Source of the DNA: Aquimarina sp. Aq78
Lineage (GTDB): Bacteria > Bacteroidota > Bacteroidia > Flavobacteriales > Flavobacteriaceae
Assembly: GCF_900299525.1 (NCBI RefSeq)
Contig: NZ_OMKA01000001.1
Span: 248,001-312,000, forward strand
Length of the DNA stretch: 64,000 bases
Direction: 5' to 3'
The position numbers and the translations under genes are program-made. Positions 2 to 10,226 of the stretch are shown in pieces (within the stretch, counting starts at the first letter, position 1; each line of letters opens with the position of its first letter). Below the pieces are notes generated by a model, which was not told where the DNA came from, did not search any database, and worked only from the letters and a program-made list of their open reading frames with translations.

Positions 2-2905
2 TCCAGAAGTATGGCGCGAGAATTAGAAAAATCAACTATAGATTACGAATATCAGAATGTAGGAGATTGTACCTTTGGAACGCCAGTAGCCAATGCATTA
101 CCTTCTACACCACATATTTCCTATACAAATATATTTGTATTAGGAAATGGAGGACCTAACCTAAGTAATATAGCTAACTTTACTATTAATTGGGATTTAA
201 GGAATAAAGGGCTGTATCAATTCTCTATGTTAACTACAGATGGAGTCCCGGGATGGTATGTAGACTTATTAGGAAACATAAGCCACACTTTTGCAAATGC
301 AAATCCATCGGTAAAACTTAGCAATACCAGAATTCCTGGTTTAGACGGTGATTACTATGTAAATAAAGAGGGAGATAACTTTATTATGGTTTCCAAAAAT
401 AAAGGTTTCACCATCTATTTTAGTACATCATCTACCAGACCAGATTGTAGTGGAAGCGCTAATAATAATGACCCGATAGCAAGAATATCAGCTACACCCA
501 CTGCGGGAGTACCACCATTAACTGTGAGTTTTGATGCTTCTGCTTCTAGTGATCCGGATTCTGCAGATGAAATACTTACATTTTTCTGGAATTTTGGAGA
601 TGGATCTACTGCTACAGGAGAATTGGTTTCACACGAATTTGTAGCAGAAGGAGAGTATGATGTTGTTCTTACCGTAACCGATGAAGGAGGAAGAACCGGG
701 CAGGCAACAAAACGTATCAAAGTGAAAGAAGATATTGTTACACCTCCTGGATCTAACGAATACTATAACAGATTCAATGAATTAAAAGATGAATTCTATA
801 GTGTAAGTAATGGATATTTCAGTGCAGATGGTTCTCCACATCATTCTATTGAAACATTAATTGTTGAAGCACCAGATTATGGTCATGAATCTACAAGTGA
901 ATTGTATTCATACTGGTTACAGCTGGAAGTGATGGATGGAAAAATAAATGAGGACTGGTCCGGAGTTGGTGAAGTATGGGATGCAATGGAAAAATTTATT
1001 ATCCCAACCGTAGACGATCAACCTACCAATTCTGTTTATAACCCTTCAAAACCTGCGACCTATGCAGCAGAATTTCCAGATCCTAATATGTACCCATCAC
1101 CATTACAATTTGGTTTACCGGTAGGAGAGGATCCTGTTTCAGCAGATTTATCAGCGACCTATGGTGACCAGGTATATCAAATGCATTGGTTACTGGATAA
1201 CGATAATTTCTATGGATATGGTAATCGCGGAGATGGAACAAGTACGCCATCATATATCAATACGTTCCAGAGAGGTGAGCAGGAATCTGTTTTTGAAACT
1301 ATTCCACATCCATCATGGGAAGATTTTACATGGGGAGGCGAAGAAGGATTTTTACCCCTCTTTACAGGTGACCCTAATTATGCAAAGCAATGGAGATATA
1401 CCAGTGCACCAGATGCAGATGCCAGAGTAGTACAAGCGATGTATTGGGCACAAGAATATGCCAAAGAGCAAGGCATTACGCTTACAGACCATTTGGGTAA
1501 AGCGTCAAAAATGGGAGACTTTTTGAGATTAGCGATGTTTGACAAGTACTTTATGAAAATGGGTGCCGAGGGTCTTACTCCTGGAAAAGGATATGAAAGT
1601 GCGCATTATCTAATGTCCTGGTATGTTGCATGGGGTGGTGCAACACCTCCTGGAGAATGGGCGTGGAGAATTAGTTCTAGTCACTGTCATTTTGGATATC
1701 AAAACCCGGTTGCAGCATATGCATTGACCAATGTAAATGAGCTAAAACCTAAATCTCAAACAGGAGAAAATGACTGGAATACCAGTTTACAGAGAATGAT
1801 GGAGTTTTACACCTGGTTACAATCTAAAGAAGGTGCAATTGCGGGTGGAGCTACAAATAGCTGGAATGGAGATTATAGCCCATACCCGGCAGGTAAATCT
1901 AAATTCTATGGAATGGCTTACGATGATAATCCAGTATATCATGATCCAGGAAGTGGAACATGGTTTGGATGGCAAGCCTGGTCTATGGAGCGTGTAGCAG
2001 AATACTACTACATCACCAATGACAAAATGGCTAAAGATTTAATAGATAAATGGGCCACCTGGGTTAAAAGTGTAGTGAAACTAGTAGGAGATGATGATTT
2101 CGAAATTCCTTCAACACTCGAGTGGACAGGAGAACCAGATGATTGGAATGCTGCCAATCCAGGAAATAACAACAACCTTAGTGTTAAGGTGGTTAGCTAT
2201 GGTAAAGATTTAGGTATTGCAGCATCTACAGCAAAAGCATTGATCTATTATGCAGCTGCTACTCAGAAACACGCAGTATTAGATACAGAATCTCGCGATC
2301 TGGCAAAAGAAATACTGGATAGAATGTGGAACAAGTATAGAGATGATAAAGGAGTATCTGCACCAGAAACCAGAGGAGATTTTAATAGAATGTTTGAGCA
2401 GGAAGTATATGTTCCTTCTAATTATAGTGGTACAATGGCTAATGGTGATGAGATTAAGTCTGGAGTATCTTTCTTAGATATCAGATCAGGATATAAAAAT
2501 GATCCTGAGTTTGGAAGACTTGAAGAAATGTATAATTCTGGGCAAGAATATACACAACGTTACCATAGAAGCTGGGCTCAAATTGAAATAGCTCTTGCAA
2601 ATGCAGAATATGGACATTTCTTTTATGAGTCAGCAAATAAAAGTACTCCTGAAAAGAATCTAGGAATCAAAGTGAATCCTAATCCTGTATCAAGCTATGT
2701 AAATATTTCTGGAAATGCGAAGCTTACAAATGCTAAAGTAAAAGTTCTTGATATCGCAGGTAATGTAGTGATAACCAAATCTTTCAAGGATTTACAAAAC
2801 AGCGCTCAACTTTCGCTAGAGGGGCTTTCTACCGGGTTGTATATTATTGAAATTATCAATACAACTACTGGAGAAAAGTTCAGAGAAAAAATAATTAAAC
2901 GATAA
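2..2905 (+). CDS. Secreted GH48 cellulase-like enzyme with PKD and T9SS sorting domain (5' end outside window)
   Basis: The reading frame is open to the left edge and the first Met (base 11) is not followed by a signal peptide, so the N-terminus lies outside; residues here count from that Met. Order: a Cys-flanked module (C20 to C146) shared with the next gene, a PKD domain (about 152-242, WNFGDGS), a GH48 catalytic domain (about 250-875), and a T9SS type A sorting domain (about 885-964). GH48 is supported by [17 protein letters not shown] sequence ([17 protein letters not shown] here), NGYFS and MEKFIIPT. E286 and E297 are 11 residues apart, as are the two catalytic-site glutamates E44 and E55 recalled for Cel48F. 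GH48 enzymes are mostly processive cellobiohydrolases; chitin-active members exist, so the substrate is inferred, supported by the CBM3 in the neighbouring protein. Confidence 0.9.

Positions 2906-10226: not shown

Follow-up and report, generated by a model that had tools for sequence, protein, structure and literature searches.

The window analysed here, a stretch of 64,000 nucleotides from the genome of Aquimarina sp. Aq78 (NZ_OMKA01000001.1, positions 248,001 to 312,000), begins within a contig (C29) and opens with two genes on the same strand (Table 1). The first encodes an enzyme of glycoside hydrolase (GH) family 48, the second a very large protein that combines two beta-propellers and a di-haem domain with two carbohydrate-binding modules (CBM3 and CBM113) and is referred to below as the haem protein. 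Both products carry a C-terminal Por_Secre_tail domain (37 bits in the haem protein and 46.4 bits in the GH48 protein, cut-off 27) and look like cargo of the type IX secretion system (T9SS). The start codon of the GH48 gene is located 50 bases upstream of the window. The complete protein has 984 amino acids, the first 17 codons lying outside and the C-terminal 967 residues within the window; its match to the GH48 profile (963.6 bits, cut-off 25) spans positions 1–619 of 619. A gene with a 1122-residue product of the organization GH9-CBM3-PKD-PKD-PKD-CBM113-T9SS ends 78 bases upstream of the GH48 start codon, and a second GH9-CBM3-PKD-CBM113 protein is encoded elsewhere in the genome. For the haem protein an alternative ATG was noticed by eye at position 3267, which would shorten the product by 12 amino acids.

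The haem region exceeded the Pfam cut-offs (in brackets) of Cytochrom_C with 33.3 bits (21.3), CCP_MauG with 28.3 bits (25.6) and, narrowly, the 39-position domain RoxA-like_Cyt-c with 27.3 bits (26.7). Pfam also recognized four PKD stretches as well as Big_5 and Big_7 in the protein; two further Ig-like segments between residue 1505 and the CBM3 were discerned by eye, for which Pfam gave nothing over cut-off. The CBM3 scored 39.5 bits (cut-off 22.4) and 47.3 bits in another search. A PDB search with the N-terminal LVIVD-type propeller gave no relative. The second propeller was modelled by AlphaFold 2 with predicted local distance difference test (pLDDT) values mostly above 80 and below 50 in some loops. 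A match of the window propeller to PF08450 stayed just below the cut-off. The domain at residues 1263–1505 was found in all 31 proteins of the same type (type I, defined below) with which it was compared, at 49–69% identity. Pfam gave no family for the window copy up to E 5, and the best PDB match reached only E 0.66; a ThuA-like affiliation found no support in Pfam or PDB, the AlphaFold 2 model of this part being of low confidence.

A domain of 126 residues is common to the GH9, GH48, GH5 and haem proteins and to members of auxiliary activity family 10 (AA10), which are lytic polysaccharide monooxygenases (LPMOs). Pfam listed no family for this domain in either window protein. However, it cannot be regarded as new, since a profile of 50 copies matched PDB entry 9kvn with an E-value of 1.7e-52, and the AlphaFold 2 model of the copy in the haem protein (mean pLDDT 94.2) was superimposed on 9kvn with a TM-score of 0.93 and a root mean square deviation of 1.0. 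Entry 9KVN represents the UKD domain of the Aquimarina sp. 2-A2 enzyme CelAly; this copy of the domain is reported to bind insoluble cellulose and alginate, and the domain was proposed as CBM113 (PMC13235733). CelAly stems from the same genus and likewise has a CBM113 and a T9SS tail, but differs from the haem protein in consisting of GH5 plus PL31; the words cytochrome, redox and heme do not occur in the main text of the paper describing it (PMC13235733). In one relative of the haem protein (locus L085) a second CBM3 occupies the position otherwise held by CBM113, which is in line with a binding role of the latter.

A preliminary description of the locus, made from the nucleotide sequence, had named the GH48 enzyme, a CBM3, PKD domains and beta-propellers, had placed CASCH motifs at residues 960 and 1092 of the second protein, and had proposed both proteins as T9SS cargo. 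The two motifs lie at exactly these positions, the coordinates given were right, and the sorting domains agree with the predicted export. The upstream GH9-CBM3-PKD-CBM113 gene and the CBM113 of both window proteins had been overlooked.

Table 1. Features of the GH48 and haem genes (coordinates of the window; residues of the haem protein unless stated otherwise).
Feature	Position	Strand	Basis
GH48 protein	2..2905	+	Open reading frame, open at 5' end; PF02011 6e-290
CBM113 (UKD), N-terminus of GH48 protein	68..448	+	Profile from six copies in the window genome
PKD of GH48 protein	464..724	+	PF18911, 72.1 bits
GH48 catalytic domain	761..2623	+	PF02011, residues 254-874 of window frame
T9SS type A sorting domain, GH48 protein	2675..2893	+	PF18962, 46.4 bits
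Type I propeller/di-haem/CBM3/CBM113 protein, 2331 amino acids	3231..10226	+	Open reading frame and Pfam
LVIVD-type N-terminal propeller, residues 51-372	3381..4346	+	LVIVD match in 16/17 aligned members
Big_5 Ig-like domain, residues 375-479	4353..4667	+	PF13205, 59 bits
First PKD of haem protein, residues 498-562	4722..4916	+	PF00801
Second propeller, YVTN/lactonase type, residues 576-934	4956..6032	+	TIGR02276 and Lactonase matches
Di-haem domain, residues 935-1195	6033..6815	+	CCP_MauG and Cytochrom_C over cut-off; PDB 5c2v_C 1.8e-28
Haem motif 1, CASCH, residues 960-964	6108..6122	+	CxxCH in 34/34 aligned proteins
Haem motif 2, CASCH, residues 1092-1096	6504..6518	+	CxxCH in 34/34 aligned proteins
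Big_7, residues 1199-1255	6825..6995	+	PF17957, 54.5 bits
Conserved domain without recognized family, residues 1263-1505	7017..7745	+	Homologue alignment
CBM3, residues 1686-1836	8286..8738	+	PF00942, 39.5 bits, match at residues 1694-1768
Three PKD domains, residues 1849-2097	8775..9521	+	PF18911
CBM113 (UKD) of haem protein, residues 2101-2226	9531..9908	+	9kvn by sequence and fold
T9SS type A sorting domain, haem protein, residues 2256-2330	9996..10220	+	PF18962, 37 bits

Distribution, conservation and cellulase linkage

Relatives of the haem protein were sought in 397 genomes of the same family (family sample) and 355 genomes of Bacteroidota (phylum sample). Proteins with its whole plan, i.e., the LVIVD propeller, the domain of residues 1263–1505, the CBM3 and the propeller/di-haem core, are referred to as type I. 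The core was found in 11 of the 397 family genomes (at 1e-20). The full type I plan is present in five (G000, G248, G320, G072, and G019), the four besides the window genome showing 58–71% identity to the window core. Proteins of similar propeller/di-haem/T9SS chassis with 38–44% identity, termed type II, are encoded in G177, G326, G341, G049, and G002, and G371 gave a weak core match. Pfam detected no CBM3 in any of five type II proteins (L046, L048, L049, L051, and L052); one protein each carried CBM6/CBM35, CBM60 with a sub-threshold ricin-type match, PA14, or four Big_2 repeats, and L048 none of these. Type II may represent a broader family of di-haem proteins targeted to glycans.

When named genomes were scanned with an alignment of type I, 34 loci were obtained. 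Aquimarina accounts for 21 of them, including one with a truncated gene (L089), and Tenacibaculum for four, followed by Flavivirga and two other Flavobacteriaceae; the rest belong to Reichenbachiella, two Flammeovirga, a Cyclobacteriaceae bacterium, Fulvivirga, and one metagenome-assembled genome. We take the carriers of the type I gene to be members of the orders Flavobacteriales and Cytophagales. The closest relative is that of A. megaterium XH134 (96%). Both CxxCH motifs are kept in all 34 aligned proteins, the window protein included, which excludes a chance occurrence of the haem motifs. Among 31 homologues, the median identity to the window protein was highest in the first propeller with Big_5 (77%), followed by the di-haem domain (74%), one Ig-like segment (69%), the second propeller (66%), the domain of residues 1263–1505 (64%), the CBM3 (54%), CBM113 (49%, 26 rows), and the T9SS tail (30%). 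The core thus looks more constrained than the anchor, since the N-terminal propeller and haem medians exceed those of CBM3, CBM113 and the tail. The HGRVHWSANFDEIQDFENDIR segment after the first haem motif is largely invariant among 13 aligned members.

Phylogenetic analysis of 33 type I and six type II rows united type I in a single clade (100/100) with a long branch and nested Tenacibaculum within a supported Aquimarina group (100/99), which suggests lateral transfer of the type I gene; the placing of the long type II branches was unsure. The Tenacibaculum loci L065, L072, L073, and L080 retain the cellulase linkage described in the following.

At 26 of the 34 loci the haem gene has cellulase genes on its own strand at a distance of up to about 10 kb, and GH48 is among them at 24; at the two others (L065 and L080) a GH5-CBM113 and a CBM3-bearing gene are found. 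This count takes in the truncated L089 as well as L088, where a stop interrupts GH48. Aquimarina loci are usually arranged as GH9-CBM3-CBM113-GH48 (frequently a single polypeptide), GH5-CBM113, the haem protein, and a GH5-type protein with two CBM3; in the window genome and A. megaterium, GH9-CBM3 and GH48 are encoded by separate genes. According to Pfam, six other neighbours contain GH5, GH8, CBM3, or CBM6, or in one case CBM96 with a GH115_C region, and no further redox gene was recognized in the flanks of the 34 loci by the search against the reference set. The gene at L056:1928-8551 and like genes in other loci encode GH9-CBM3-PKD-CBM113-CBM113-PKD-GH48 as one polypeptide, a look-alike of CelA from Caldicellulosiruptor bescii (GH9-CBM3c-CBM3b-CBM3b-GH48; PMC6892212). 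The GH9/GH48 pairing is the same in both, but the linkers in the Bacteroidota set are PKD and CBM113.

The tie to GH48 extends beyond the immediate neighbourhood. In the family sample GH48 occurs in five of 397 genomes, four of which also hold the full type I plan (Fisher p 2e-8; the Fisher tests given here treat related genomes as independent, and the p-values are indicative only). The fifth is G177, where a truncated type I gene occupies the operon position. In the phylum sample GH48 was over cut-off in three of 355 genomes, and the type I propeller was found in the same three; a fourth GH48 match was under cut-off. Among 32 genomes examined from the type I loci, 31 contain GH48 (30 of 31 if the genome with the truncated gene is left out). 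One family genome (G019) has type I without GH48. In G177, the genome that also contributes L089, L047:5247-10449 (minus strand) shows type I reduced to part of the first propeller, while GH9, GH5-GH48, and AA10-CBM113 genes are retained. These surveys bear out two expectations of the preliminary description, which had called GH48 uncommon in Bacteroidota and had made its reading depend on recurrence of the GH48/haem gene pair and of the haem motifs: the pair recurs on one strand at the 24 loci given above, and no loss of a motif was seen.

Affinity of the haem domain

The best PDB relative of a profile of the haem region was the gamma subunit of hydrazine synthase (5c2v_C), with a match covering both haem regions, and the next relatives were di-haem peroxidases and MauG. 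With two CxxCH motifs and the CCP_MauG profile over its cut-off, the haem part is placed by its sequence in the superfamily of bacterial di-haem peroxidases and MauG, with hydrazine synthase gamma as the nearest relative. It shares two CxxCH motifs and a C-terminal PTLRDVWxTAPYLHxG segment with di-haem peroxidases, MauG, MbnH, and RoxA, but differs from all of these in that its haem domain is joined to cellulose-binding modules. Membership in individual families was rejected on the basis of the curated NCBIfam cut-offs (bits scored/cut-off): hydrazine synthase beta 33.7/560, gamma 71.7/625, and beta-gamma fusion 62.9/1250; MauG 38.1/443.85 and MbnH 51.2/362.85; RoxB 19.5/900 and RoxC 19.9/900.

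The beta and gamma subunits of hydrazine synthase from Kuenenia (5c2v) resemble the core in pairing a propeller with a di-haem subunit. A Foldseek search with the second propeller returned 1l0q first and hydrazine synthase beta (5c2v_B) second, which is weak evidence of likeness, as 1018 PDB chains gave matches at or below 0.001. The ligand of the second haem is Met in peroxidases and Tyr in MauG. The place of this residue is variable in the alignment, neither Met nor Tyr being conserved there, with an invariant Asn1161 beside it. Near this place all aligned type I members have His1166, which is common to hydrazine synthase gamma, a likeness in sequence that may serve as a lead; by alignment His1166, His1110, and His1146 are candidate axial ligands.

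Proposed role and alternatives

We propose, with a probability of roughly 55%, that the haem protein is secreted, anchored to cellulose and active as a di-haem redox enzyme of the GH9/GH48/GH5 cellulase system of marine Bacteroidota, without need of an LPMO. According to this proposal, the T9SS would deliver the protein to the cell surface or the medium, and CBM3 and CBM113, recognizable as modules by sequence, would hold it on the fibre. The propeller and di-haem core, apparently laid out like hydrazine synthase beta-gamma, would perform electron chemistry of the peroxidase or oxygenase type with H2O2 or O2 beside the hydrolases, and could exchange electrons with an AA10 where one is present. 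Haem loading, export, cellulose binding, substrate, and the direction of electron flow are predictions from the families to which the domains belong.

Several observations weigh against this proposal. No cellulase gene is present in the examined flank of eight of the 34 loci (L063, L067–L071, L076, and L078), one of which (L068) sits on an 8-kb contig. G416 has type I without GH48, and G177 retains GH48 and AA10 with only residues 23–195 of type I, so that the protein is dispensable there or the assembly is at fault. The counts are not independent because 21 of the 34 loci are from Aquimarina. In the AlphaFold 2 model of residues 560–1510 the pLDDT of the haem part is mostly below 50, and the ligands and the active site are not readable from so poor a model. 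Finally, type I genomes are enriched in AA10 (21 of 32, vs 6 of the 397 family genomes), and two of the 11 core-bearing family genomes have one (p 0.01), so that a link to LPMOs may exist in part of the species.

This last point bears on the first alternative, in which the haem protein would be the electron donor or H2O2 manager of AA10 LPMOs that bear CBM113. The window genome has two AA10 matches, both on contigs other than that of the window, in which the preliminary description had rightly seen no LPMO. One of them is an AA10-PKD-CBM113-T9SS gene that adjoins an oppositely oriented GH5-PKD-CBM113-T9SS gene. CBM113 is present on at least one AA10 in 16 of the 32 type I genomes, the figure for the core-bearing family genomes points in the same direction, and the X183 domain of Cbp2D, a CBM-linked cytochrome of Cellvibrio japonicus, could initiate LPMO reduction (PMC8981238, PMC12542752). 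On the other hand, AA10 is not a constant companion of type I: it is wholly absent from 11 of the 32 type I genomes, ten of which contain GH48, and one family genome with type I and GH48 but without AA10 (G248) consists of a single contig. Leaving out the genome with the truncated gene changes the AA10 count to 20 of 31 and that of CBM113-bearing AA10 to 15 of 31. Only one of the five full type I family genomes has an AA10 (p 0.07), the search of the flanks at the 34 loci detected none, G036 has a CBM113-bearing AA10 without the haem gene, and the X183 domains of Teredinibacter turnerae failed to drive TtAA10 (PMC10916295). Type I occurs independently of AA10, and LPMO feeding as its general role is ruled out by the 11 AA10-free genomes and by CBM113-bearing AA10 in the absence of type I. 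The interpretation in the preliminary description is supported as far as the pairing of the haem protein with GH48 is concerned, but not as a general supply of electrons to LPMOs; the use of H2O2, also raised there, is plausible in view of the superfamily. Overall, we consider this alternative unlikely; a role as LPMO partner is possible in species with CBM113-bearing AA10, the window genome included.

Rather improbable is also a protective function, in which a fibre-bound di-haem peroxidase would remove H2O2 and spare the secreted cellulases and the cells. The superfamily takes in bacterial cytochrome c peroxidases, and such a function needs no LPMO. However, the matches to cytochrome c peroxidases are weaker than the match to hydrazine synthase gamma, no electron donor for an extracellular peroxidase was recognized, and protection alone does not explain the tie to GH48. 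A maturation enzyme of the MauG/MbnH type, the di-haem domain of which would oxidize residues of a surface partner such as a cellulase or binding protein, is very improbable: the MbnH and MauG profiles do match, but far below their curated cut-offs, and the recurrent neighbours recognized with the limited reference set are hydrolases only. We give hardly any credence to a mainly scaffolding or adhesive protein with incidental haems, which would suit the large size, the propellers, the PKD repeats, and the several binding modules, but not the retention of CxxCH in 34 of 34 proteins and a haem domain among the best conserved parts.

The LPMO-independent redox enzyme of the GH9/GH48/GH5 system could, in a more specific form that we regard as speculative and about as doubtful as the protective peroxidase, be a di-haem, copper-free counterpart of LPMOs that oxidizes or cleaves crystalline cellulose with O2 or H2O2 and opens the fibre for GH9 and GH48. 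Direct oxidative action of this kind would explain why the tie to GH48 is closer than that to AA10, why the core is more conserved than the anchor, and why other CBMs are found on the related chassis.

Genomic surroundings and known CBM-linked cytochromes

Window positions 10478–14575 (minus strand) hold three genes that are absent at the same place in A. megaterium XH134 (L066), where the next gene follows 136 bases after the haem gene. They encode two look-alike proteins of about 600 amino acids, one of which matches a phage tail-fibre profile (3.7e-12), and a small protein with a T9SS tail; the difference reflects either an insertion in the window genome or a loss in A. megaterium XH134. 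At positions 18563–19948 (minus strand), 8 kb from the cellulase set, a GH113-family protein (1.9e-52) is encoded, possibly a beta-mannanase. A search of one strand of the 15-kb set for one promoter pattern of the Bacteroidota type gave a match only downstream of the set. The second AA10 of the genome (L015:5654-9148, minus strand) shows by eye chitin-binding and GH18 modules and lies beside two more GH18-like genes. No CBM113 was found in this cluster, which by eye reads as a chitin set.

Secreted cytochromes linked to CBMs are already known, and the haem protein is of this kind in having CBMs and CxxCH motifs on one putatively secreted protein with ties to cellulose. Cbp2D and Cbp2E of Cellvibrio japonicus combine CBM2 with X158, and Cbp2D in addition with X183 and X132. 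Cbp2D resembles the haem protein in joining a cellulose-binding module to c-type cytochrome domains, but is described as having two single-CxxCH domains and a YceI-like domain (PMC8981238), and both Cellvibrio proteins carry CBM2, not CBM3 or CBM113. The haem profile gave 37 matches in the PDB, and none of them is labelled as X158, X183, or X132 (a comparison by name). According to PMC12542752, cbp2D and cbp2E are among six genes of carbohydrate-active enzymes needed for growth on insoluble cellulose in Cellvibrio, a set that holds Lpmo10B, Cel5B, and Cel6A instead of GH9/GH48; in an earlier study cited there the single deletions of cbp2D and cbp2E grew worse than that of lpmo10B, and the authors hypothesized direct cellulose cleavage beyond LPMO feeding. 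TERTU_3803 and TERTU_2913 of T. turnerae are described as large extracellular redox proteins with cytochrome domains, one of them with CBMs and a region of pf08450, the profile narrowly missed by the window propeller; they differ in their X183/X132/X122/X173 domains, and the main text of that paper uses neither the word propeller nor the word peroxidase (PMC10916295). Type I differs from these cytochromes in the family of the haem domain, the propellers, the CBMs, the sorting signal, and the cellulase partners. Among the matches listed in a search of titles and abstract starts of the open-licence literature, none described a di-haem CBM3 protein or a GH9/GH48/haem gene set.

The role of CBM-linked bacterial redox proteins, and whether they serve LPMOs at all, is regarded as an open question in a review (PMC10154616). 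Type I adds to these proteins an independent family, which is built on a different haem domain, is situated among cellulase genes, and persists without any AA10. The AA10-free carriers, among them Aquimarina sp. MMG016 (L057) and a Tenacibaculum (L072), make the question of LPMO service directly testable, with no AA10 to confuse the result. The sorting domain of the haem protein suggests that the T9SS may export proteins with c-type haem, and a defined set of GH9, GH48, GH5, and redox genes is added to the turnover of algal cellulose in the sea.

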